Part shown: in pieces, positions 39,586 through 50,761 of the stretch
Layout of the letters: each line of letters begins with the position of its first letter
Position numbering within the stretch: position 1 is the stretch's first letter
Assembly: GCA_024743175.1 (NCBI GenBank)
Contig: JANSXA010000001.1
Span: 124,001 to 188,000, forward strand
Source of the DNA: Pseudomonadaceae bacterium
GTDB taxonomy: Bacteria > Pseudomonadota > Gammaproteobacteria > Pseudomonadales > Azotimanducaceae
Direction of reading: 5' to 3'
DNA length: 64,000 nucleotides
The notes under the pieces: generated by a model
The model's database searches: none
What the model was told of the DNA's origin: nothing
The model's input: only the letters and a program-made list of their open reading frames with translations
Translations under genes and position numbers: made by a program

Positions 39586-39675
39586 GGAGGGATGGCTGAG
39601 CGGTCGAAAGCACTGGTCTTGAAAACCAGCAAGGGTTAACACTCTTCCAGGGTTCGAATCCCTGTCCCTCCGCCA
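39586..39675 (+). tRNA. tRNA-Ser (UGA anticodon)
   Basis: This 90-nt type II tRNA has acceptor stem GGAGGGA/TCCCTCC, discriminator G and an encoded CCA end (39673-39675). The anticodon TGA sits in the loop CTTGAAA and the T-arm contains GGTTCGAATCC. The long variable arm (AAGGG/CTCTT) has one G-T wobble. Its 3' part forms the left end of the integrated element. Confidence 0.97.
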
Positions 39676-39676
39676 C
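39618..39676 (+). repeat. attL (3' part of tRNA-Ser)
   Basis: This 59-bp block runs from the anticodon loop (CTTGAAAACC) to the base after CCA. It is identical to attR at 50703-50761 except for T39643 versus C50728. Integration kept the tRNA gene whole on this side. Confidence 0.93.
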
Positions 39677-39745
39677 TAAGATCATGTTTTCCATTGATAT
39701 TTCCCCACCTCCCCACTCGCTTACTTAAGCGTATCCTTATTTTGT

Positions 39746-39763
39746 GGCGTAACAAGGGCGTAA
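39746..39763 (+). promoter_or_regulatory. Candidate integrase arm-type site, left
   Basis: GGCGTAACAAGGGCGTAA contains two GGCGTAA units 11 bp apart. A one-base variant, in the same orientation, occurs at 50567-50584 near the other end. Paired repeats inside both ends of an element are typical of integrase or excisionase arm sites. Confidence 0.55.
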
Positions 39764-39885
39764 ATCCAGTAGCCACCAAACCAAAAATACCGGTATGCTT
39801 CCGAGTATTATTGCAGCGTTGTTTTAGTTAGGCACCGACAATGCCCTCAGCAAAATGTGCTGCGGCCCTACAATAGGAGGTAGAT

Positions 39886-40329
39886 TTGGTTGCCAGACTA
39901 ATAATTTGCGTTGTGGTGTTTTTCACAACCTTAAACACACAGGGAGCAGAAAGGGATTTCGCATATCTATGCTCTGCGGAAAAAGTAGCCGTCGTTAAGG
40001 TTGGTGATGACATGAAGTCTATCGGAGATGCAAAAGCCTACAATGACTCCAGCCTAACAAATCAAATTCGATACTGGGTCGAATCAGATGGTATTTCTAC
40101 CTACGGCTCAGCAGGAAAAATTTTCGATGACTGGAAGTGTGCGGTGCTGGGAGATGGGGACTTCCCAGTTTATTGTCGTACAGTCGGTGAAGACTTCTTT
40201 GCACCGATGCTAGGCTATATGTTCGTTAACGATCAACAACGTTTTGTAATCTACTCTACAGTTGCTTCTGAGATTGATGGAATGAGCAACGAGAGAATTG
40301 ACGTAGGTCGTTGCGAAAAAGTTAAATAA
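39886..40329 (+). CDS. Predicted secreted protein of unknown function (element cargo)
   Basis: This is a 147-residue protein with a signal peptide (about residues 1-20, cleavage near NTQGA). Four Cys residues in the mature part suggest disulfides in the periplasm. No family recognised. The start is TTG at 39886, fixed by a strong Shine-Dalgarno AGGAGG at 39875-39880. Its stop codon overlaps the integrase ATG (TAATG), so it is translated from the same transcript as the integrase. A second secreted protein of the same length lies at the other end of the element, without obvious sequence similarity. Confidence 0.7.
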   Translation: MVARLIICVVVFFTTLNTQGAERDFAYLCSAEKVAVVKVGDDMKSIGDAKAYNDSSLTNQIRYWVESDGISTYGSAGKIFDDWKCAVLGDGDFPVYCRTVGEDFFAPMLGYMFVNDQQRFVIYSTVASEIDGMSNERIDVGRCEKVK

Positions 40330-41399
40330 TGGCATCACTTTACGAACGAGAACGCCGAGACGGCACCAAAGTGTGGCGAGTCGAATATCGCCACCTCGGC
40401 CATGCTTCCAAATCCAAAACATTTGAACGCAAAGGCGATGCTCTAAACTACAAGCGTCGAGTTGAGCGTGAGTACGACGAGGTCCGCTCGGATCCCAACC
40501 GAATAAGCCATCACAAGCGTCTGCACGATGTCATCGCGGTTTATCGTGAACGTGAACTGCCGAAGATGAAAGCCAGCTACACACATGGCTTGGGCTGTGA
40601 TTTCTGGAAAGCGCGGCTCGGTCATATCAAGCTCGGTGAAATTACAGCGCCCATGATCAAAACTGAACTGGCTAAGCATGTTGCTGCTGGTCGCGCTGGG
40701 GCAACCGCCAATCGCAAATTGACCGTGTTGAGCGGAATGCTGAAGTTCGCCATCAACGAGCTGGGTTGGCTTCAGGATAACCCCTGCAGGCTTGTATCGC
40801 GTTACAAAGATGCAAAGCGTCGAGAACGCACGATTACCGCAAAAGAATGGGATGCTTTGCTTGAGGCTGCTGACGTGTTGGCCAGTACTGAGCGTGCTCG
40901 CGTCCGAGCCCAACAACTGCCTGCGTTTTTGCTCTTGTTATATGCCACTGGCATGCGCAAAGGGGAAGCTGAAGGTTTGCGATGGCGCGATGTCGATTTG
41001 GACAATATGCGTATTCAGTTGCGTGATACGAAGAATGGTCTTGGCCGCACTGTTCCACTCGATCAAGATACACGTGCCCTACTACTCGCGCATCAACAGC
41101 AATTCGGCACGACTGAATGGGTTTTCCCAAACGAAAAAGGCGACGGTCACACTGTCTTTGATGGTCCTTTTCGAGAGGCTCGGGAAAAAGCTAAGCTCGG
41201 CCTTGATGATCACGGCGAGCCTCTGGTACTCCACTCACTCCGACATAGCTTCGCTACTGAAGTTGCTCAGGGTGGAGCGACTTTGGTCGAACTGATGGCG
41301 GCCACGGGACACAAATCTGTCGCTGCGGCTGAACGCTATTTGCACCCTCAAGAACACCATGCTCGCTCGGCCGTTAGCAAGCGTCAGAGGGCAACATGA
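40329..41399 (+). CDS. int: Tyrosine-type site-specific integrase
   Basis: This 356-residue phage integrase carries out integration and excision at tRNA-Ser. An N-terminal arm-binding region (RRDGTKVWRVEYRHLG) and a core-binding SAM-like domain (about 60-160) are followed by the catalytic domain with all six expected residues: R210 (GMRKGE), K235, H302 and R305 (LHSLRHSF), H328 (TGHKS) and the nucleophile Y337 (RYLHP). The gene points away from the tRNA and lies 650 bp inside attL. It is coupled to the preceding secreted-protein gene (TAATG) and the following gene (ATGA). Confidence 0.96.
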   Translation: MASLYERERRDGTKVWRVEYRHLGHASKSKTFERKGDALNYKRRVEREYDEVRSDPNRISHHKRLHDVIAVYRERELPKMKASYTHGLGCDFWKARLGHIKLGEITAPMIKTELAKHVAAGRAGATANRKLTVLSGMLKFAINELGWLQDNPCRLVSRYKDAKRRERTITAKEWDALLEAADVLASTERARVRAQQLPAFLLLLYATGMRKGEAEGLRWRDVDLDNMRIQLRDTKNGLGRTVPLDQDTRALLLAHQQQFGTTEWVFPNEKGDGHTVFDGPFREAREKAKLGLDDHGEPLVLHSLRHSFATEVAQGGATLVELMAATGHKSVAAAERYLHPQEHHARSAVSKRQRAT

Positions 41400-41929
41400 T
41401 GACTGACGATAGACGCACTAAGCACACCGGAAGCCATGCTCCTGATGTAAGTTGGCCTACGTTTCTGAGCTTACTTAAAAGCGCAGCATTGAGTCTTGAA
41501 AACTTCGAAAGCCTTGATGGTAAAAAAACTGACTATGCACAATTTGTAGATCAAGCCCATAAAATGCTGGAACATGCATACTCGTTGTCCAAGAAAGGCG
41601 ACAGATCTGCAGAGATTGCTCAAGCGTTCGGCTTAAGTATTGAGCCACTGGAAGAGCGTAATATATTGCTCGCGGCACTTATATTTTGCTGCGGAGCTGA
41701 CGAGCCAAGAAGAAAAAGCAGTGCTTGTAAAAAAGCGGCAGACATTCTTCAGGGTAGATATGGCGAGGAATTAACCGAAAAATATCTCTTTGACATAGTG
41801 TATCCGAAGCACCGGCCTCGCCTCGACCAGTTGACCGAAGTTCTTGATCTTGAAGGCGTACTTTCATTTTTGGATGACTACTACCAAAAGACCAATAACG
41901 AAGAAACACGCCCCACTCCCAGGTTCTAG
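41396..41929 (+). CDS. Hypothetical protein downstream of integrase
   Basis: This is a 177-residue, mostly helical, soluble protein with a basic patch DEPRRKSSACKKAADILQGRYG. I recognise no family. Its ATG overlaps the integrase stop (ATGA), so it is translated with the integrase and may modulate integration, but this is only positional inference. Confidence 0.65.
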   Translation: MMTDDRRTKHTGSHAPDVSWPTFLSLLKSAALSLENFESLDGKKTDYAQFVDQAHKMLEHAYSLSKKGDRSAEIAQAFGLSIEPLEERNILLAALIFCCGADEPRRKSSACKKAADILQGRYGEELTEKYLFDIVYPKHRPRLDQLTEVLDLEGVLSFLDDYYQKTNNEETRPTPRF

Positions 41930-41933
41930 TTTT

Positions 41934-41966
41934 CCCTACTACTTCCATATAGTAGAGGGGATTTTT
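41934..41966 (+). terminator. Likely terminator of the integrase operon
   Basis: CCCTACTA (41934-41941) pairs with TAGTAG-A-GGG (from 41950, one bulged base), followed by ATTTTT. It lies 5 bp after the stop of the gene at 41396. Confidence 0.55.
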
Positions 41967-42028
41967 CCACGTTGAGATAACTCAAGATTGTCCCTCACTT
42001 AAGCAACCTTGTTAAAGAGAGTGTCAAT

Positions 42029-42334
42029 ATGACAAGCCAAGCAACACATTCTGAAGAGCTGCGTTACCCTATCCTTCTTACAAAGTCTCAATTCGTGCGC
42101 AAGCACATCGAGCATTTTGAAGGCGAAGGCGAATTGGGGTGGCAAGTCGTCAACCGTAGAACTAACGGCATGTTAAAGGCTGGTGCTGTTGTGGAAGTGC
42201 GCAGCCGACCAGAAGCTAAACGCCCCAAAATACTGATCGATGAAGAACGCTATTTCCATTGGGTCAAAAACCAGCAGATCTATTTGGATATAGTGCTGCG
42301 GGATGAAATCTCAGCGATGGAAACTCACGCATAA
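42029..42334 (+). CDS. Small protein, possible DNA-binding/excisionase-like
   Basis: This is a 101-residue protein with a good position between the integrase operon and the primase gene, where satellites usually keep an AlpA/excisionase-type regulator. The first half contains LLTKSQFVRKHIEHFEGEG, which could be a helix-turn-helix start. The second half has RPKILIDEERYFHWVKNQ, the pattern that ends many excisionase-like proteins (basic residues, then an aromatic helix). The DNA-binding role is an inference; no family was firmly recognised. Confidence 0.6.
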   Translation: MTSQATHSEELRYPILLTKSQFVRKHIEHFEGEGELGWQVVNRRTNGMLKAGAVVEVRSRPEAKRPKILIDEERYFHWVKNQQIYLDIVLRDEISAMETHA

Positions 42335-42361
42335 AAAAGCCCGGAGCTGGGCCGGGCTTAG
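42334..42361 (-). terminator. Hairpin terminator between small gene and primase gene
   Basis: AAGCCCGG/CCGGGCTT stem with a 7-nt loop (AGCTGGG) is flanked at left by six A's. That reads as a U-run on the minus strand, so minus-strand termination is favoured. It may also weakly stop plus-strand transcripts from 42029. Confidence 0.6.
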
Positions 42362-42495
42362 TCTCTCCGCAGAGAGTAGAGTCGTTAGACTCCTGAAGAA
42401 ACACAATTCTGTTCTCTCCTGCCTTTGATGTAAAGCCTGTCCTTTGTCCACAGATTAACAAAACGTGCCACGCGATTTGTGGCAAGGATAGAAAA

Positions 42496-44877
42496 TTGGA
42501 TACTCCAACACAGGCACAAGTGAAAGCGCGCGCGCTTGAACTACTCAACCACCGTATATTCACTGTACCAATTCGAGCGGGGCAAAAAGTGCCCTACGCC
42601 AACCAGGGTGAGCAGTGGCAGGACCGTGTAATACTGAATGAATCTCACGTCTATAATCCGTATAACCTTCCAGGCGACGCGGGTGGATTGGGAATTTCAC
42701 ACCTACACAGCGGTACTGCTGTGGTAGACATTGACGACCTAGGCAAGGCCAGCGCATGGTGGCTCGAACACTACAAAATAGACTTGAATCACGAGCTAAA
42801 ACGTGAAGACGCGGTGCGCATCCAAAGTGGCAAGCCTAACCGAGCCAAATTGCTCTACAGAGTGCCACCCGAGCTTATGCCGCTGCAATCGGTCAAGCGG
42901 GATGCTGATGGGTTCGAACTGCGCAGCTGCACGAAGAAAGGGACGAGTCTGCAGGACGTCATTTGCGGAATACACCCGACCACAGGTCAGGCGTATGAAG
43001 TAACAGGAAATCTTGGCCGCATACCTGTAGTTCCTGACGACCTTTTAAGAAAATGGCTCGATATGCTTGCGGTGCGGGCTGATCGCCGGTCGCTGATTGG
43101 CGCACCACCAAATGAAGCCGTTATTCGATCCGCACTGTCTTCCATCGACCCAGACATCGAGTACAACGATTGGCTGGCCATCGGCATGGCGCTGGATGAA
43201 GTTGGGCTTGGAGATTTGTGGGAGGAATGGTCAGAAACGGGGAAATCATTTAAGCCAGGCGATTGTTGTGCACGGCTACAAGGGTTTACCCCTGGTGGCG
43301 GAGCAACGCTCGGCACTCTTTTCCATCATGCGCGGGAAGCAGGTTGGAGCGGCTCAGACGCTTGGCAGAGTGAAGCCGACAATTTGATCAGCAACACCAG
43401 CGGTAACATCGCTAATGATCTGAAGTTACTTGCGCAGCTTTACAGCCACTGCAAACCTGGGGAATCCAGCGTCGATTCATCACTGAAACAGCTGGCTAAG
43501 GCATATGGCGTTTCTATCGGGCCGCTACGGAATGATTTTCGAAACCTGCTGAAGAACTCAGATGGGAAAGATCTTACCCATCATGGAGTTGCACAACACT
43601 ACCTGAAAAGTAAAGGTCAAGCGATCAACTCATTAGCCAGTACCTACGTCTACGATCAATCCGCCGCATGCTGGAAACCGCTCAAAGAAGAGGTAATGCG
43701 TAACGAAATCGGTGAGCGCTATCAAGACCAGAAGCTCGTTCAGACAGCAACTGGAGTAAGTGGCGTCATCAAGCAGGCTCTGAGCTTCTATTGGCACGAC
43801 GACTATTTTGCCAACGCACCTCACAAAGGCATTGCCACTTTATCTGGCTTTCACGTGCTGCAGATAGATGGCACCTTCCAGTGTCAACCACATGCGCCAG
43901 AGCACCGTGTCAGGCGCGTTCTCCCGGCCGACCCTATCCCATGGGTACCGGGTAGCCCCGATGCCCCGCCGCTATTCTGTAAGTTGCTGGAAGCCCTGGG
44001 TAATACGGACCCCAATCAAGAATTGGTCCTCGCTGAGTACGTTGCCGCCTGCCTGCTAAGGGAAGTAGCTCCACTAAAACGCGCGCTATTTCTTCTGGGT
44101 GCACACGATTCTGGCAAATCCCAAATGCTACGAATCATGGAGTTACTGATCGGTGAGGAAAACCGGACAGCTATTGAACCTCATCAATTCAGTGAGCCCT
44201 ACTTCGCGGCCGTTCTAGCTGATTCAATGTTGAACTGCGTCGGAGAAGTGCCAATCAAAGAGGACGTTGCTAGTGCTGCGTTTTTGAAAATCACTTCAGG
44301 CGACAGCATCACTGGCAGGCACCCTTCAGGTAGGCCGTTTTCCTATAGGCCATCGGCAGGCCAGGTTTACGCCAACAACCACCTCCCTAAAACAAGCATG
44401 ACCGGTGAATACTTTTGGCGGCGCTGGGCATTAGTTGAGTTTTCCAAGTCAGTTCCAGCAGATGAACAAATCCCGAACCTCGGCGAGAAAGTATTCGAAA
44501 AAGAACTAGGACAGCTCGTGTACTGGGTAATGCAGGGCGCTCAGCGTGTACATAAAAACAAATGCTATTCGTTAGGAACCAAACATGAAGAACTGATCGC
44601 CGATTGGCGGTTGTCCCACAACGTGTTTTTGAAGTGCCTCAATGCTGAAGATGGACCATTTCTAAAAGGTGAGTCTATGAAGTTAAAGTTCGACCAGCTT
44701 CATGCAGCAGTCAAGGACTGGGCTTTATCAAACGGATACCGCCAGAGTGATCTGCCAGGTCGCAGTGAGTTGGTGAAACAAGCTTCTGAGCACTTCACTA
44801 TGGTCAAGCACGGTCGCAGTATTGGCAACCACCTTCAGGGTATCGGCATAGCGATCGACACGCATTATGGGAACTAA
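42496..44877 (+). CDS. Replicative primase-polymerase / SF3 helicase (P4-like)
   Basis: This 793-residue protein probably starts replication of the excised element. The N-terminal prim-pol domain has metal-binding D78 and D80 (VVDIDD). A PriCT-like segment (about 215-290) reads YNDWLAIGMALDEVG, then GFTPGGGATLGTLFHHAREAGW. The C-terminal D5/P4-type helicase has Walker A GAHDSGKSQ (about residue 535), a B-motif region (LNCVGEVP) and YANNHLPKTSMTGEYFWRRW. The start is TTG at 42496 with AAGGA 7-8 bp upstream. A primase-helicase with its own origin candidate (49808-49945) supports autonomous replication after excision. Confidence 0.9.
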   Translation: MDTPTQAQVKARALELLNHRIFTVPIRAGQKVPYANQGEQWQDRVILNESHVYNPYNLPGDAGGLGISHLHSGTAVVDIDDLGKASAWWLEHYKIDLNHELKREDAVRIQSGKPNRAKLLYRVPPELMPLQSVKRDADGFELRSCTKKGTSLQDVICGIHPTTGQAYEVTGNLGRIPVVPDDLLRKWLDMLAVRADRRSLIGAPPNEAVIRSALSSIDPDIEYNDWLAIGMALDEVGLGDLWEEWSETGKSFKPGDCCARLQGFTPGGGATLGTLFHHAREAGWSGSDAWQSEADNLISNTSGNIANDLKLLAQLYSHCKPGESSVDSSLKQLAKAYGVSIGPLRNDFRNLLKNSDGKDLTHHGVAQHYLKSKGQAINSLASTYVYDQSAACWKPLKEEVMRNEIGERYQDQKLVQTATGVSGVIKQALSFYWHDDYFANAPHKGIATLSGFHVLQIDGTFQCQPHAPEHRVRRVLPADPIPWVPGSPDAPPLFCKLLEALGNTDPNQELVLAEYVAACLLREVAPLKRALFLLGAHDSGKSQMLRIMELLIGEENRTAIEPHQFSEPYFAAVLADSMLNCVGEVPIKEDVASAAFLKITSGDSITGRHPSGRPFSYRPSAGQVYANNHLPKTSMTGEYFWRRWALVEFSKSVPADEQIPNLGEKVFEKELGQLVYWVMQGAQRVHKNKCYSLGTKHEELIADWRLSHNVFLKCLNAEDGPFLKGESMKLKFDQLHAAVKDWALSNGYRQSDLPGRSELVKQASEHFTMVKHGRSIGNHLQGIGIAIDTHYGN

Positions 44878-44919
44878 AACAATAAGACTGGAGCAGTGGG
44901 GTTACAGAAAGCCGCCCTC

Positions 44920-45076
44920 CCACCCCTCGGAGGGCGCCGAGGGTACTTTTCCTTATTCAATCATTCATATAGAAAAATCACAAATTCAGCTAATCCTTGA
45001 TATTTCTATATGCAGCTACTGGAGCAAATTATCCGCCCTCGGCGCCCTCCGGCGTGCGGGTCCTCCTGAGGGGTGG
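44920..45076. repeat. Large interrupted GC-rich inverted repeat
   Basis: The 16-nt arm 44928-44943 (CGGAGGGCGCCGAGGG) pairs exactly with 45036-45051. Outside it CCACCCCT (44920-44927) pairs with AGGGGTGG (45069-45076) after a 17-nt insertion on the right. The AT-richer loop is about 92 nt. It lies between the replication and capsid genes, where a packaging site, structured RNA or attenuator could sit. Confidence 0.75.
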
Positions 45077-45154
45077 CAACCTGCGGGTATAGGGAGGCGC
45101 GTGAAATCGCACATTTTGCATGTGCAAAACTAACGCTTGAGTCTGACTATCAAT

Positions 45155-45463
45155 ATGGACACATCGATTAACAATAACTATGAATCATATCAACGCTTGA
45201 TCGTGGCTTTGCGTGACCACCCGGACCTGGCAAGTTTCATGATATCCATCGCACGTGACAGCCAGGACATGATCGCTATCCGTGACGCAATGGCTACAGA
45301 AATCATCACTCGGCATTTGACAGGCTCACAAACGCAAAGATGCAAAAGGCTGATAGCACTTGTCAGTCAAAAACACCCATTAACGGATCAACTCAGGTCG
45401 CTGCCCTGCCCCATTCCAACAAATCATCGAGCACTGGCAAAGCGCATTTTTAAAAAAGATTAA
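45155..45463 (+). CDS. Small hypothetical protein upstream of capsid gene
   Basis: This is a soluble helical protein of 102 residues if it starts at ATG 45155 (MDTSINNNYESYQ); a TTG at 45137 would add six residues. It is Asp/Arg-rich in the first half (VALRDHPDLASFMISIARDSQDM) with a basic C terminus (ALAKRIFKKD). I recognise no family. It ends 45 bp before the protease-capsid gene, so it may be a small head-related or regulatory protein. Confidence 0.55.
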   Translation: MDTSINNNYESYQRLIVALRDHPDLASFMISIARDSQDMIAIRDAMATEIITRHLTGSQTQRCKRLIALVSQKHPLTDQLRSLPCPIPTNHRALAKRIFKKD

Positions 45464-45508
45464 AAAAGTGTTAGGCGAGGCCACCTGGCCGCGAGTTAGC
45501 CTTACAGC

Positions 45509-47416
45509 ATGTGGTACACAATTGAAAATCGCGGACCCCAATGCAAAGAGCTACGCATCTTTGGTGAAATTGGTTTTGAGGTCTCAGCTGAGCAGCTCGT
45601 CGCTGACTTGGACGAAATTGACCGCAACATACCCCTTCACGTTCAGATTCACACGCCAGGCGGCTCAGTATTTGACGGCTTGGCAATCTACAATCGCCTC
45701 AAAGCCCACCTTGCACCAGTAACAACCGAAGTGATCGGGATGGCAGCCAGCATGGGCAGCATCATAATGCTGGCTGGAGACCACCGCCTCATGAACGAAG
45801 GTTCATGGGTCATGATCCACAACCCCGCCAGTTCAGCCTTTGGTGAATCCAAAGATTTAAACAAGGCAGCGCAAACGCTTGACCAATTCAAATCAGGATT
45901 GCTGGATATCTATGCACGCAACCTGAAATTGCCCCGTGACACGATCAGCTCAATGATGGATGAGGAAACTTGGTTCAACGCGGCAGACGCGATTGCAGCC
46001 GGATTCGCCCACGAAGTAACCGCACCAGAAGTCGATGTTGCAGCCAACTTACGCGACGCAGACGTTACTAGATTTGAACGCCCACCCAATTTCTTGAAGG
46101 AGATTAAAGCCGTGAACACCAGTCAAACCAACCAAAAGTTAGCCAACCTGGAAGCCGAGGATCAGCGCAAAACCGAAATCTTAGCCGTCTTCGATGGCTT
46201 TCCTGCATACAGCGCTACGTTGCATGCCTGCCTCCAGGACCGAAGCTGCACCGAAGCACAAGCACGCCATAAGCTGCAGGACGCAATGAAAGCCTACAAC
46301 GACGCAAATATATCGCCGACAGGTGGAGTGGTCTCTGTGAAGTCGAATGTTGATGGCGATACGCGGCAAGCGTTTAGGGACCAGCTTGCAGTACGCATGG
46401 GTGCCAAGCCAACTGATGACATGCACCCTGCTGTACGCAATGGGGACATTAGCCGTATGGGTAACAAAGCGATATTCGAAGCTGTTGCACGGTCACGCGG
46501 TTTTACCAGCGAACCCGTAGGCGGATGGCTTCAGCAGCCTGGCTCAGACGTACCAGGAATCACCATTGATGCTGCCAACGTAGTCGCTGCACAGGCCTAC
46601 GATGAAGCGCCAGAGACCGACCGCTGGACGGCTGAAAACACTGCTAACGACTTCAAAACGCACAACCACGTGCAGTCAGACATCACAGGATTCCCAAAGC
46701 TCGAAAGTGAAAATGAGCAAATTCAATATGGGAAACTTTCTGATAAAAACGAGACCAATAGCGTTGATACCTACGGCGTGCAGATAGCCCTCAGCCGCCA
46801 GCTACTAGTGAATGGCGAGGTCGAAAACATTGGCCGCTTGGTTACGCAAATCGCCCGTACTGCGCGCTCCACGCAGCTGGACACGCTGTATAACAAACTC
46901 ATCGCTAACCCTACCTTGAGCGAAGACAGTACTGCCCTATTCCACGCTAACCATAGCAACCTGATATCAGGCGGTGGCTCAGTTCTAGGCGTTGCAGGCT
47001 TAACTGCTGCGCTCCTAGCAATGCGGCAGCAAACCGGGTTAGGCGGACGTAAACTGGGCCTCACTCCGGCTTACCTGCTTGTACCAGCGGCACTGGAAGT
47101 GACCGCACGTCAACTTATAGCGTCCAGCGTTGACCCGTCATCGAGCGGCGCTGACATTGCCAACCCATTCCAAAACTTCGTTGAGGTCATCGTTGAGTCA
47201 CGGCTGGATGATGATAGCGCCACAGCCTGGTACTTGATGGCCAACCCAAATCAGGTGGACACCTTTGAGCAATTGTATTTGGAAGGTCCAGCACCACGGA
47301 TCGTTGAAAACGACAACACGGCATCCGGCGTATTGGGCACAACTTGGCTCGCGTACTTCGATCATGGCGTTAGCCCACTCGATTTCCGAGGCATGCTGAA
47401 AAGCGCTGGCGCATAA
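45509..47416 (+). CDS. ClpP-type prohead protease fused to Mu-gpT-like major capsid protein
   Basis: One 635-residue chain combines two head-assembly proteins. Residues 1-185 are a ClpP/S14-like protease with catalytic Ser81 (GMAASMGSIIMLAG) and His104 (VMIHNPASS). Residues about 195-300 form a helical linker, possibly a scaffold. Residues about 305-635 resemble the Mu gpT type of HK97-fold capsid protein (TYGVQIALSRQLLVNGEVENIGRLVTQIARTAR, LFHANHSNLISGG, NPFQNFVEVIVESRLDD). In most phages the protease and capsid are separate genes. The protease could free the capsid domain in cis. This is the main evidence that the element makes its own shell. Confidence 0.9.
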   Translation: MWYTIENRGPQCKELRIFGEIGFEVSAEQLVADLDEIDRNIPLHVQIHTPGGSVFDGLAIYNRLKAHLAPVTTEVIGMAASMGSIIMLAGDHRLMNEGSWVMIHNPASSAFGESKDLNKAAQTLDQFKSGLLDIYARNLKLPRDTISSMMDEETWFNAADAIAAGFAHEVTAPEVDVAANLRDADVTRFERPPNFLKEIKAVNTSQTNQKLANLEAEDQRKTEILAVFDGFPAYSATLHACLQDRSCTEAQARHKLQDAMKAYNDANISPTGGVVSVKSNVDGDTRQAFRDQLAVRMGAKPTDDMHPAVRNGDISRMGNKAIFEAVARSRGFTSEPVGGWLQQPGSDVPGITIDAANVVAAQAYDEAPETDRWTAENTANDFKTHNHVQSDITGFPKLESENEQIQYGKLSDKNETNSVDTYGVQIALSRQLLVNGEVENIGRLVTQIARTARSTQLDTLYNKLIANPTLSEDSTALFHANHSNLISGGGSVLGVAGLTAALLAMRQQTGLGGRKLGLTPAYLLVPAALEVTARQLIASSVDPSSSGADIANPFQNFVEVIVESRLDDDSATAWYLMANPNQVDTFEQLYLEGPAPRIVENDNTASGVLGTTWLAYFDHGVSPLDFRGMLKSAGA

Positions 47417-47445
47417 CCACTTATTTCAACAGTTAGGAGCAGAGT

Positions 47446-47808
47446 ATGAGTTCCAGTTTTGTACGTGAGGGAAAGACCCTCGTTTATACCAATGGCGGAT
47501 CGGCGATCGTCGGTGGTTCCGTAGTGATCGTTGGTGATTTAGTTGCCGTGGCAGGTGAAGACATTGCCAACGGCGCTACCGGCGTTCTATACCTTGAGGG
47601 TGAGTTCTTACTGCCCAAGGTCAGCGGTGCAGAGATTGGCATTGGTGAAAAAGTGATATGGGACGACTCAGCAGATGCCTTCGAGGACTCTGCTGCAACA
47701 CCAGCAAGCGGTGACGTAAGCGGGGCTGCATTCGCAACGCAGACTGCTGGCAGTGGCACTACAACCGTAAACGTCAAGCTGGCTAATCCCGGCTCAGTCA
47801 CTGCGTAA
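47446..47808 (+). CDS. Capsid decoration protein, DUF2190-like
   Basis: This is a 120-residue, Gly/Ala/Val-rich beta protein without Cys. The pattern is that of DUF2190 phage proteins, which cement or decorate the capsid: VVIVGDLVAVAGEDIANGATGVLYLEGEFLLPK, then GEKVIWDDSADAF and the C-terminal TTTVNVKLAN. It follows the protease-capsid gene by 29 bp with a good ribosome-binding site (AGGAG). The position directly after the capsid gene is the normal one for decoration proteins. Confidence 0.85.
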   Translation: MSSSFVREGKTLVYTNGGSAIVGGSVVIVGDLVAVAGEDIANGATGVLYLEGEFLLPKVSGAEIGIGEKVIWDDSADAFEDSAATPASGDVSGAAFATQTAGSGTTTVNVKLANPGSVTA

Positions 47809-47819
47809 GTAGGCACCCC

Positions 47820-48140
47820 ATGAAAACAGTGATCAAGGAAGGTATGGAGCTTCAGGAGTTTGTTGAAGCAGAAACCAGCCAACTGAAAATGGAACGCACC
47901 CTGAAGGACTTAGTTGCCAACTACCGTGAAGAAAAATGGTCAGGGGTGATGAGGCTACTCGACTTCGCCACCAATACTTACTGGCTATTGGAATTCATGG
48001 ATGGGCTCATAACTCATCGCACGGCCTACACAGGCGTTCCACCGATTGCTGACAAGCACATGGTGCGGGTTCATGAGAATGCCAGGCTGGATTTTGGGCC
48101 GTTAGACGACAGCGATGAGTATGTGCCGGTGAGGCATTAA
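47820..48140 (+). CDS. Hypothetical protein, last gene of capsid module
   Basis: This is a 106-residue acidic protein with an N-terminal helix pair (MELQEFVEAETSQLKMERTLKDLVANYREEKWSGVMRLLDF). It starts 11 bp after the decoration gene, so it belongs to the head module. I recognise no family; a head completion, scaffold or size-control role is possible by position only. It overlaps the 3' end of the convergent SEFIR/TIR gene by 4 bp. Confidence 0.65.
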   Translation: MKTVIKEGMELQEFVEAETSQLKMERTLKDLVANYREEKWSGVMRLLDFATNTYWLLEFMDGLITHRTAYTGVPPIADKHMVRVHENARLDFGPLDDSDEYVPVRH

Positions 48141-48895
48141 GATAGCCCAACGAGGCCATGCTCAAAAACATAGGATCGGCCTTTGGGGGTGATTTCGATG
48201 TATGTACCATTTACTTCTTTACTTAAAACAATCAAACCGTCTTTTGCAGCCGTTTCTAGATAGTGGTCCAACGTAAATCGATGCATTCCGCTGACATGAA
48301 GCAGCTCATCCAACATCAAATAATCGTGTGACGAATTCGAGAAAGACGAGGAGATTGCTTCCATAAGTCTAAGAACGCCATCTGAGGCTCTATCTGGGCG
48401 AGATGAAGCCATTGGTTCGAATGATGCACTTCCGATTTCAGGTTTCGGGTATAAAGGTGCGCCTAACAATTTCCGCAGCAACTCGTCCAAACTGTACTCT
48501 TCTTCTTCATCACGAGAAAAGTCTATATAAATTTTGGAACTCATAAACGTTGGTGTTGGTGCTTCTAAACCAGACTGGCGGACTATGGGAATCACTTTAC
48601 TGTCGCCAATTTGCGAAAGTAGATTTGCAGTCATGATCATTTTTTCGTATCCAACTCCGCCCGATCCTGCGTTTGCCTTGTCGACATAAGCTTTAGTGCA
48701 GACCATAACAACAAAATCACAGCGCTCGAGCTGGGTTTCCATGAAGTGTGGCAGATCACCCCCTGGGCCCAAATCCCACTGATCTAAAACAGCATCGACA
48801 CCTCTTTTGCGAAGGGTTGTCGCAAAATCGAGGACCCATTCCTTATGCTCAGCTGAGTCGTGAGAATATGAGATAAAAACTACTGGCGGATTCAA
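48137..48895 (-). CDS. SEFIR/TIR-domain protein, putative phage defence
   Basis: The N-terminal 150 residues have the SEFIR/TIR fold pattern: PVVFISYSHDSAEHKEWV, FATTLRKRGVDAVLDQWDL, then VVMVCTKAYVDKANAG and GVGYEKMI. The C-terminal part (about 180-252) looks like a winged helix (LMLDELLHVSGMHRFTLDHYLETAAKDGLIVL). Such proteins occur in anti-phage systems as signalling or NAD-degrading effectors. I chose TTG 48895 (MNPPVVFISYSH, 252 aa) because AGAGAGG lies 6 bp upstream; ATGs at 48919 and 48928 are alternatives. It sits opposite to the capsid genes, as cargo genes often do. Confidence 0.8.
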   Translation of the reverse strand: MNPPVVFISYSHDSAEHKEWVLDFATTLRKRGVDAVLDQWDLGPGGDLPHFMETQLERCDFVVMVCTKAYVDKANAGSGGVGYEKMIMTANLLSQIGDSKVIPIVRQSGLEAPTPTFMSSKIYIDFSRDEEEEYSLDELLRKLLGAPLYPKPEIGSASFEPMASSRPDRASDGVLRLMEAISSSFSNSSHDYLMLDELLHVSGMHRFTLDHYLETAAKDGLIVLSKEVNGTYIEITPKGRSYVFEHGLVGLS

Positions 48896-49063
48896 GCGGC
48901 ACCTCTCTGATTTACGCATCCCTGACATTAGGGCACAGATCCAAAAGCGACAAGTTACAAGCCTTGCTTTGTTGAATGCTCCGAATCTGAGCTGAGGTTT
49001 TCGCAGGACTGTGGTTTTGACCCAATCGACGAAAACACAACAAATTGTGTCTACACCACGGAA

Positions 49064-49092
49064 TTGACACACATATAGTACTAGACTATTTT
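49064..49092 (+). promoter_or_regulatory. Sigma-70-type promoter for the gene at 49168
   Basis: A perfect -35 TTGACA (49064-49069) and a -10 TATTTT (49087-49092) are separated by 17 bp. The next plus-strand gene starts at 49168 with AGGAGA 7 bp before it. The rest of 48896-49167 shows no gene. Confidence 0.6.
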
Positions 49093-49167
49093 TGCATCAG
49101 GCGGATGCACATTGCTCACCTAGCAAGTCTAATGTAGAGTGCGCCGCGAATTCGAGGAGATGCTTTA

Positions 49168-49434
49168 ATGTTTACTGACAAAATCACAATTCTTATCGCA
49201 CAAGTTAAGAACGGTGGCTATCTAGTTGAAAGTAACGACTTGCCAGAACTGAACATCTTCGTGCGAGACGAGGCCAACCTGAAAACAGCGATTCCAGCCG
49301 CTATAAAATATCTCTACAAGCACAATCGGAATATAAACGTTCAGGTCTCTATGCAGGGGCCTGCACTTGATATTCCTCGCCCGGACGGAAGAGCAAGTAG
49401 TCGACGATACGTGGAGTTGCGTTCAGCTGCCTAG
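49168..49434 (+). CDS. Small protein, DUF1902/HicB-like pattern
   Basis: This is an 88-residue protein starting with an AGGAGA ribosome-binding site. The segment GGYLVESNDLPELNIFVRDEANLKTAIPAAIKYLYKHN resembles the short beta-beta-alpha fold of DUF1902 and HicB-type antitoxins. No HicA-like toxin is next to it, so it may be a lone antitoxin-type or regulatory protein. It ends overlapping the convergent gene at 49423 by 12 bp. Confidence 0.65.
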   Translation: MFTDKITILIAQVKNGGYLVESNDLPELNIFVRDEANLKTAIPAAIKYLYKHNRNINVQVSMQGPALDIPRPDGRASSRRYVELRSAA

Positions 49435-49680
49435 CGAATCTTTGATTCGGCGAAAAATTCGATTCCAGTCGCTCCAGCTGATCATGGGCATATCCATTTC
49501 ATATTCAGGATCATCTTCCAAACCATTTGAAACGCCAGGTACAAGGTATCGCCTACCCTCAACTGTTTCCCAGACTCCATTGGGAATTCCATCTTCAAAG
49601 TACTCAATGCCAACGTAGGTAAGCCCTAGTTCTTCGAGTTCTTGGCTATATTCAGGTCGTCTTAACAATCGGAGCGCCAT
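49423..49680 (-). CDS. Small hypothetical acidic protein
   Basis: This is an 85-residue soluble protein rich in Asp/Glu, with GVWETVEGRRYLVPG and a C-terminal WSDWNRIFRRIKDSL. I recognise no family. It has a plausible ribosome-binding site (AGGGGG, about 8-10 bp before ATG). Convergent with and overlapping 49168-49434; whether the two act together is unknown. Confidence 0.5.
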   Translation of the reverse strand: MALRLLRRPEYSQELEELGLTYVGIEYFEDGIPNGVWETVEGRRYLVPGVSNGLEDDPEYEMDMPMISWSDWNRIFRRIKDSLGS

Positions 49681-49807
49681 ATGGCAGTCCCCCTCACAAT
49701 TTATTCTATGTCATTGACCACTCACCAAAAGGCATTCCCCGTACCGGCGATAAGCGATATTTAAAGGAATGACACGAAACGTCACCCCAACCTTGTCCTT
49801 AGAAAAA

Positions 49808-49945
49808 TTTGACTGAGTCAAACAAAATAACCCCTACATATAGGGGTTCAAGAACGTAGAAGCACAAGATAATGGGACGCAACCCAGTTTGCAAGGTTTT
49901 GTCTGTGGATAACCTGTGGGTAATTCGGTGTGAGCTGTGCACAGC
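49808..49945. other. Palindrome-rich candidate replication origin of the element
   Basis: Within the 400-bp gene-free stretch 49681-50080 there are a perfect palindrome TTTGACTGAGTCAAA (49808-49822), an inverted repeat AACCCCTA-CATA-TAGGGGTT (49829-49848), two DnaA-box-like repeats TGTGGATAA (49904-49912) and TGTGGGTAA (49915-49923) 11 bp apart, and a palindrome GCTGTGCACAGC (49934-49945). The cluster suits an origin used by the element's primase-helicase, or an operator region. The rest of the gap shows nothing else. Confidence 0.5.
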
Positions 49946-50080
49946 CCTTTTCGTTGCTTTTCAGCAGGAGATGATTGACTCCCTGTTCTTAAAAACAACC
50001 AGTTAAGCTAGCAAACTATTGTACCTTTACGCACAGTTGCCTGTGCGATACTCGACAGCATCACCTGGAGCCAAACGACA

Positions 50081-50524
50081 GTGCATATAACAAAGTGTCT
50101 ACTTTTCGTTCTTTTAACTTCTACGGGATTTGCCAATGCGGCAAGCGAAATGGACGAAAATGCGCCGAACCTATTCGAGGCTTATCAACAATATGGGTTA
50201 GGCCTTAGTCGGTGCGTAATGTGGTCTCTCACCGCGAAGGAGATGATTTCAAACGGGCGCGAAGACCAAGGGGTTGAAGAGATTTTGACTTCCTCAGCAA
50301 ACAGTTATGACCTGTTTGCTGATGCTTTGTTCAGGCATTATGGTAGCGACAGCTTTGCAGAAAAATTAATGCATGCGGCTCTTCAAAGATCTGGGGAGAG
50401 GCTTAAAGAAGAGCTCGCCGGGGTTGTGAATCAGAAAGACCAAACGGTTAGACTAATGTTTCTAATTGAGATTGGAATGAATTGCGCTGCACATCAAGGA
50501 ATACTTGAGCACTATAAACCTTGA
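50081..50524 (+). CDS. Predicted secreted protein of unknown function (element cargo, right end)
   Basis: This is a 147-residue protein with a signal peptide (about residues 1-20, ending near FANA) and two Cys in the mature helical part. It starts with GTG at 50081 (MHITKCLLFVLLTS). No family recognised. It mirrors the secreted protein at the left end in length and export signal, and both could alter the cell surface or periplasm against other phages; this is speculation. Confidence 0.65.
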   Translation: MHITKCLLFVLLTSTGFANAASEMDENAPNLFEAYQQYGLGLSRCVMWSLTAKEMISNGREDQGVEEILTSSANSYDLFADALFRHYGSDSFAEKLMHAALQRSGERLKEELAGVVNQKDQTVRLMFLIEIGMNCAAHQGILEHYKP

Positions 50525-50566
50525 GCCCAACAGAAAGTCAAAAGGCTCTCCTATGCGACTTATCGC

Positions 50567-50584
50567 GGCGTAACAACGGCGTAA
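50567..50584 (+). promoter_or_regulatory. Candidate integrase arm-type site, right
   Basis: GGCGTAACAACGGCGTAA matches the left copy (39746-39763) at 17 of 18 positions. It lies 118 bp inside attR and in the same orientation. The 178-bp stretch 50525-50702 holds no gene. Confidence 0.55.
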
Positions 50585-50702
50585 TCTTCGACAAATCAGT
50601 GATAAATAGTTTTAACTTGTGACACAATGTTCTGTTAATAACTAACTGAAATTTAAACGGAATTAGTGGGTATTGGATAGGCTGAAGTAGGCGTTAAAGG
50701 CG

Positions 50703-50761
50703 CTTGAAAACCAGCAAGGGTTAACACCCTTCCAGGGTTCGAATCCCTGTCCCTCCGCCAC
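50703..50761 (+). repeat. attR (truncated tRNA-Ser copy)
   Basis: A 59-bp copy of the tRNA-Ser 3' part, from the anticodon loop through CCA. It lacks the 5' half, so it is not a functional tRNA. It differs from attL only at 50728, where C restores a perfect variable-arm stem (AAGGG/CCCTT). Confidence 0.93.

Follow-up and report, generated by a model that had tools for sequence, protein, structure and literature searches.

A compact genetic island was examined within a 64,000-nucleotide stretch of Pseudomonadaceae bacterium DNA (assembly GCA_024743175.1, contig JANSXA010000001.1, positions 124,001 to 188,000; hereafter, the window), where it occupies a tRNA-Ser(TGA) gene between two 59-nt direct repeats that differ by one mismatch and are spaced 11,085 bp apart (Table 1). 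An earlier note, made from the sequence alone, had described an island with these attachment (att) repeats, an intact integrase, a primase-helicase, a protease-capsid fusion and a DUF2190 gene, and these assignments were borne out by the repeat itself and by Pfam, PHROG and NCBIfam matches. Features absent from that note were a SEFIR/TIR gene, a cos site, the 101-aa frame at 42029 and the small frames at 49168 and 49423.

Table 1. Features of the tRNA-Ser island, numbered from the first nucleotide of the window.
Feature	Position	Strand	Basis
tRNA-Ser(TGA), integration target, intact, left end	39586..39675	+	ARAGORN
attL, 59 nt, 3' part of tRNA-Ser	39618..39676	+	direct repeat
Tyrosine integrase, 356 aa	40329..41399	+	PF00589 5e-26; phrog_1 4e-58
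177-aa protein, no family	41396..41929	+	Pfam, PHROGs, NCBIfam; one PHROG match (E 0.097), not counted
101-aa protein, between integrase and primase	42029..42334	+	no significant profile match (Pfam, PHROGs, NCBIfam)
Prim-Pol/PriCT_2/DUF5906 primase-polymerase/helicase, 793 aa, TTG start	42496..44877	+	Pfam
Lambda-type cos: cosQ-like GGGTCCT, cosN-like CGGG...CGCG	45058..45101	+	pattern scans
108-aa protein directly 5' of capsid gene	45137..45463	+	relatives have a gene at that place
ClpP-like prohead protease/major capsid protein fusion, 635 aa	45509..47416	+	Pfam, PHROGs, NCBIfam
DUF2190 head cement/decoration protein, 120 aa	47446..47808	+	PF09956 2e-20; phrog_122 2e-22
106-aa protein, no family	47820..48140	+	Pfam, PHROGs, NCBIfam
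SEFIR/TIR protein (bSEFIR), antiphage cargo	48137..49072	-	PF13676 1e-23; PF08357 5e-13; PADLOC bSEFIR 7e-78
88-aa frame	49168..49434	+	weak similarity to a gene of L025 (28%, E 8e-6)
85-aa frame	49423..49680	-	weak similarity to the neighbouring L025 gene (41% over 49 aa, E 0.002)
147-aa open frame, no family	50081..50524	+	NCBIfam, PHROGs
attR, 59 nt, one mismatch vs attL	50703..50761	+	direct repeat

The fusion protein matched both CLP_protease (2e-32) and Phage_capsid_4 (2e-36, model positions 9-262 of 262) as well as phrog_133 (9e-132), and scored 432.8 bits against the NCBIfam model for such fusions, NF045540, which is below the cut-off of 475. It was approximately 29-34% identical to the relatives compared, and two of its residues, Ser81 and His104, which we read from the alignment as the probable ClpP serine and histidine, were invariant across 12 aligned proteins. 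The primase-helicase also matched the NCBIfam model for the C-terminal part of P4-family primases, below the cut-off of that model.

The site itself was found unoccupied in one of eight same-genus regions compared. Thus, in genome G810 (locus L328) galE, tRNA-Ser(TGA) and tusD follow one another with no insert and in matching order and orientation, while in genome G802 (L329) the tRNA at the corresponding region is inverted and in the remaining six regions no tRNA was noted within the stretch examined. A tRNA-Phe called by ARAGORN at 50666-50760 is read by us as the attR copy mistaken for a tRNA.

The packaging, tail and lysis genes that the earlier note had not seen were not found in several scans either. 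Large terminase subunit (TerL) and portal profiles gave nothing significant against six-frame open reading frames of at least 50 aa from the element (best E 3.3), and PHROG scans of 10 plus 4 window proteins revealed no terminase, portal or tail family; among these 14 proteins the single lysis-class match had an E value of 0.097, which is too weak to count. The set expected of capsid-forming phage-inducible chromosomal islands (cf-PICIs), i.e., portal, TerL, the small terminase subunit (TerS), connectors and HNH, was likewise missing from the Pfam and PHROG scans of the window, and membership in that group was rejected since no portal or terminase was found. A P4-like assignment is at odds with the presence of a capsid gene in the island, and no Sid-type family appeared in the general Pfam and PHROG scans, which did not include a model-by-model search. 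Marks of a decayed prophage, i.e., broken genes, a lost att site or remnants of terminase, portal or tail genes, were not seen. The features that were found are those of phage-inducible chromosomal islands (PICIs) of Gram-negative bacteria: an integrase with a specific att site, a primase-type replication gene, a phage cos, recognised by sequence with no cosB identified, and a length of 11,085 bp, in the range of approximately 10-20 kb, without a complete packaging, tail or lysis set.

The cos site has the form GGGTCCT-N19-CGGG-N10-CGCG and lies directly before the capsid operon. The same blocks were seen when the record ends of lambda and of E. coli phage LLS, the record of which annotates its cohesive end, were set side by side with it. 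The pattern matched once in the window and not at all in 100 shuffles, and in the whole 4.72-Mb genome there were two matches, one in the element and the other upstream of terS, at a distance of 70 bp, in a prophage on contig C18, as opposed to none for a reversed control. Because the degenerate pattern was drawn up after the window, C18, LLS and lambda sites had been seen, it is independent only for loci examined later, i.e., element L233 (described below), in which the strict pattern was found after it had been fixed, the four enteric-type contigs (also below), for which a looser pattern was used although the printed sites fit the strict one, and the control phage loci. Of 21 such loci, each with at least 900 bases upstream of TerL and with two phages entered twice (L026/L125 and L062/L095), nine had the pattern in the 2.5 kb preceding TerL. 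Elsewhere in these loci there was one match in 593,778 bases, which was located in L253 just after a capsid gene, where enteric-type satellites have their cos. A second control of 94 other viral loci, 850,207 bases in all, gave no match; these loci had been picked for a match to the cos core and included the contigs of L025 and L026. Each of three matches in 28 later loci was at most 0.7 kb upstream of TerL. A cos-core scan of viral contigs, with 94 contigs matched, was not above a rough chance estimate and was not used as evidence. An inverted repeat at 44919-45060, with 25-nt arms that are 84% complementary and 92 nt apart, directly precedes cos and could be part of it or of a replication origin.

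The C18 prophage (genome G000, approximately 175-205 kb; loci L099 and L100) encodes TerS, TerL, portal, a ClpP-capsid fusion, decoration and tape-measure proteins, a J-like fibre and an amidase. A separate frame beside it (L100:16313-17971) had terminase-like, FtsK/SpoIIIE-like and Zot-like PHROG matches and possibly belongs to another element.

Related capsid genes were sought in samples of 150 family, 293 order, 369 class and 398 phylum genomes, which partly overlap, and in viral and genome contigs. Phages with related capsids have terminase and portal genes adjoining the capsid gene; thus, in 9 of 12 genomes examined the capsid gene was a few kb from a GpA terminase, while in G074 and G264 the two were on different contigs and G317 gave no GpA terminase match. 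G317 carries an element of similar plan (L231), which is 10,581 bp long with 46-bp att repeats at tRNA-Pro; another (L233), from genome G557 of the class search, is 9,706 bp long with 58-bp repeats at tRNA-Leu. Both have an integrase, an HTH_17 (AlpA-like) helix-turn-helix gene, one or more large genes in the replication place, a small gene and a ClpP-capsid fusion. The replication place is filled by toprim and DUF927 genes in L231 and by a 520-aa gene with no Pfam match in L233, and the latter element also has a TerS-like gene after its cos and a minor tail protein Z gene.

A third relative, L025, is a viral contig of 10,398 bases with a 127-base terminal repeat and is therefore most likely a circle of 10,271 bp. 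Its genes are an integrase, a weak HTH_17 match, a replication-initiator-like gene, the fusion, a cement gene and a tape-measure gene. Neither TerL nor portal was found in any of the four elements compared (i.e., the window element, L025, L231 and L233), and the fused protease-capsid frames were uninterrupted in all of them. In Gram-negative PICIs an alpA regulator or excisionase gene is expected after int. In the three relatives the HTH_17 match was clear only in L233 and did not reach the curated threshold in L231 or L025, and for the 101-aa gene between integrase and primase in the window, which had no significant profile match, an AlpA-like role is suggested only by its position.

The metagenome number of L025, 3300032212, is also carried by a 35.9-kb myophage contig (L026/G431) with TerL, portal, fusion and cement genes and, from our reading of its frames, sheath and tube genes. 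The tape-measure gene common to L025 and L026 was 88% identical in DNA over 1,440 bases, with 117 synonymous as opposed to 57 non-synonymous codon changes, and the two contigs also share a 95-base stretch (88% identical) with a cosN-like motif, which is upstream of the terminase genes in L026 and of the capsid operon in L025. Sharing of this sort would be expected between a satellite and its helper, which on these sequences L025 and L026 likely are, and provides a natural pair of satellite and candidate helper from one metagenome. The L025 tape-measure gene (L025:824-2392) is close in length to its counterpart in the co-occurring phage and has diverged at the N-terminus.

Further candidates came from the wider searches. 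Among the matches listed, viral contigs L249, L250, L252 and L292 had an integrase and a fusion followed by cos and a TerS-like gene, with an HTH gene and/or a primase-like gene by blastp. These are termed enteric-type because L249 and L252 matched E. coli genomes at approximately 84-87% in the fusion; no E. coli genome had one place that covered 80% of L249 or L252. In the phylum search 28 of 42 listed places were examined, of which 26 had TerL and/or portal and two (L369 and L379) did not. The latter two are candidates only: L379 has an integrase, a gene with weak similarity to the one for replication in L025, a small gene and then the fusion, with no att repeat, tRNA or cos found, and in L369 there are a capsid frame and a toprim-like gene. 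The L369 frame (L369:10679-11992) follows the toprim-like gene and is without an obvious ClpP half, possibly reflecting a different or decayed satellite. A primase scan of viral contigs gave one distant relative, and a scan of genome contigs gave four confirmed loci, none of which was used as a satellite. Contigs L246, L247 and L253, in which one end carries a TerL fragment and an integrase with a ClpP-capsid stretch lies further along, may represent satellites inside or beside helper prophages.

The capsids of L025, L231 and L233 grouped together in both capsid trees (support 91/89 and 93/87), and the window capsid appeared as a long branch outside this group in both best trees, with modest support (86/68 and 92/87). 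A single clade of these four was not rejected by the approximately unbiased test (p-AU 0.16) whereas single clades that also contained enteric-type L249 (p-AU 4e-100) or both L369 and L379 (p-AU 0.0001) were; in the larger tree L369 and L379 fell elsewhere, L379 beside another long branch, and the capsid of L249, the enteric-type element sampled, also had a different place among the capsids. A single origin of the satellite capsids is thus rejected by the tests of five- and six-row clades, which indicates that such elements acquired capsid genes of this family on more than one occasion. Repeated acquisition agrees better with a piecewise capture of phage late regions than with the decay of one old prophage. 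Gene order differs as well: in the window, L025 and L233 the capsid gene is preceded by cos or a cos-like motif, and in enteric-type contigs it is followed by cos. A satellite gene shared at the place before the capsid gene was also considered and rejected, since mutual support among the small genes of L025, L231 and L233 was weak (leave-one-out E 0.002 to 0.15) and no homology to them was found for the 108-aa gene of the window (E 80).

Satellites that resemble the window element have been described in papers cited here by PMC number. Among the closest in plan is EcCICFT073, which is reported to have two cos sites, both functional, and to encode a capsid and a head decoration protein (PMC6092414). 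Like the window element, it is approximately 11 kb long, and its integrase, primase, capsid and decoration genes are present in the CFT073 record, which annotates neither terminase nor portal nor tail genes. Unlike the window, which encodes a 635-aa ClpP-capsid fusion and a DUF2190 cement protein, carries SEFIR cargo and has no detectable AlpA, EcCICFT073 has a 351-aa capsid protein without protease, and an HTH gene. The window element is accordingly placed with the PICI-like satellites of the cos type. A capsid gene is present in 21 of 29 reference Gram-negative PICIs, and some E. coli PICIs, in tRNA-Ile2, carry a CLP_protease gene (PMC10111431). One E. coli tRNA-Ile PICI (NZ_CP097719) has an integrase, a primase and a ClpP-capsid fusion with no TerL or portal annotated, as in the window, together with an HTH gene; it differs in that the fusion is marked as frameshifted and is followed by a TerS-like DUF1441 gene. 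SaPIbov5, likewise a satellite with cos, has an HK97-type capsid homologue of its own (Ccm) but is Gram-positive, and Ccm is described, in the parts of the reports available, without a protease or cement partner (PMC5052747, PMC8569155).

The cf-PICIs, which make their own capsids (PMC11389934, PMC10803314), resemble the window element in having a capsid protein with a maturation protease and, as expected for the window element, in using helper tails, but differ in that they also encode portal, connectors, TerS, TerL and HNH (PMC10690885), none of which was found in the window. P4 is not known to encode a capsid protein. It redirects the helper capsid by means of Sid (PMC10690885), and P4-like satellites share with the window element a similar size, a primase-helicase and, as proposed for the window element, cos packaging by helper terminase. 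A literature search, which was thin on subscription papers, returned no PICI with a ClpP-capsid fusion as such, beside the CLP_protease PICIs. The earlier note held that known satellites take over helper capsids or else supply most of a head together with terminase; this view is incomplete, given EcCICFT073 with its capsid, decoration protein and cos and no terminase. Its proposal of a new satellite type is supported for the satellite part, in view of the relatives, the circle and the cos site, but is not supported as worded for the novelty of the type, in view of EcCICFT073, SaPIbov5 and the PICIs with a capsid gene. The window element is a divergent version of a known general kind, and its distinguishing point is the fusion of the capsid to its maturation protease.

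From its sequence the island quite probably belongs to the cos-type phage satellites of the Gram-negative PICI group. This reading draws support from relatives that have a similar plan and occupy other tRNAs, a circular relative, a phage-type cos and the lack of TerL and portal in four elements. In the cycle that we propose, a helper with a GpA-family terminase, such as the C18 prophage or a relative, would start its lytic cycle, upon which the satellite would excise and replicate with its own primase. Helper terminase would cut the satellite cos and package the satellite, the capsid fusion and cement protein would make or modify a shell, either by themselves on the portal of the helper or in a mixture with its capsid protein, and helper tails would complete the particle. 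The SEFIR gene could defend host or satellite against other phages. We infer excision, helper dependence, packaging by helper terminase, the role of the fusion and the choice of C18 as helper.

Several observations count against this satellite assignment. TerS, an identified cosB, a clear AlpA and a recognised repressor are all missing from the element, and the DNA packaged for EcCICFT073 was phage-sized (PMC6092414). No long DNA match was found between the element and the C18 prophage, so that naming C18 as helper is a guess. The cos argument is weakened by L231, which had no strict or loose match, and by L025 and L026, which fail the strict pattern and have only its cosN-like part; since the nine matching control phages are closely related, the reach of the pattern across phages is also poorly measured. 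Of the four elements, only that of the window and L025 showed a cement gene by blastp; none turned up in L231 or L233.

That the island is instead a prophage reduced by recent deletion and now dead, the alternative named in the earlier note, seems very improbable. Its gene types are phage-like and related capsids usually occur in phages, as seen from the proximity of terminase in most of the genomes examined and of TerL and/or portal in nearly all of the phylum-level neighbourhoods; yet the att repeats and main genes are intact, cos is directly before the capsid operon with no remnant of TerL or portal detected, and three other elements, with intact att sites at other tRNAs or as a circular contig, share the plan. 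The note had named relatives with terminase, portal and tail genes at the corresponding places, together with deletion scars, as grounds for abandoning its proposal. Such grounds did not emerge: phages with related capsids do have terminase and portal beside the capsid gene, but the satellites are elements apart from them, with intact att sites. A genuine satellite in which the capsid genes are passengers, acquired by recombination with helpers or kept only for interference with competitors, is unlikely but deserves more weight. Genes of this capsid family were taken up more than once and the window capsid is a long branch in both trees, and in the available parts of the reports PICI capsid genes are not required for transfer (PMC10111431) and EcCICFT073 mutants in the capsid or decoration gene did not relieve interference with lambda (PMC6092414). 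Counting against this reading are the uninterrupted fused frames in all four elements.

A Ccm-like role, in which the fusion would co-assemble with helper capsid protein and shrink the shell or poison helper assembly, is a serious possibility, if somewhat short of an even chance. Precedents are Ccm, which takes the pentamer positions in small procapsids (PMC8569155) and is unable to substitute for the capsid protein of the helper (PMC5052747), and PmCI172, which has a capsid homologue and forms small capsids by electron microscopy (PMC6092414); a protease and a cement gene, however, are not obviously needed for such a role. A complete small shell built by the fusion and cement protein in the manner of cf-PICIs, with portal, terminase and tail from the helper, we regard as possible but open to doubt. 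The fusion is full length with its maturation protease, unlike the 351-aa EcCICFT073 capsid, the cement gene is adjacent and the putative catalytic residues are invariant, but such a shell would have to fit the helper portal despite the low identity of the fusion to its relatives, no cement gene was found in two of these, and the reported dispensability of PICI capsid genes for transfer applies here as well. Because the capsid in the window has its own maturation protease and cement protein, an own shell and a skewed helper shell lead to different measurable predictions, which makes the purpose of capsid genes in PICI-like satellites testable. More tentatively still, and with some doubt, these elements may form a class of satellites with a minimal shell kit, i.e., protease, presumed scaffold stretch and capsid in one gene, here with cement, and their own cos, plugged onto the portal, terminase and tail of a helper; this class would have been assembled several times independently from ClpP-capsid phages and once with a copy of the tape-measure gene of a co-occurring phage.

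Two minor observations concern the remainder of the island. The 106-aa protein, called a small head-module gene product in the earlier note, belonged to no family on which such a name could rest; its position suggests that it is part of the late operon, and its predicted fold (mean pLDDT 49) was of too low a confidence to read. A 143-bp stretch of the window (49803-49945) was 83% identical to a sequence elsewhere in the same genome (G000:C14:307058-307200), upstream of a probable ribonucleotide reductase gene, and is perhaps a captured promoter.

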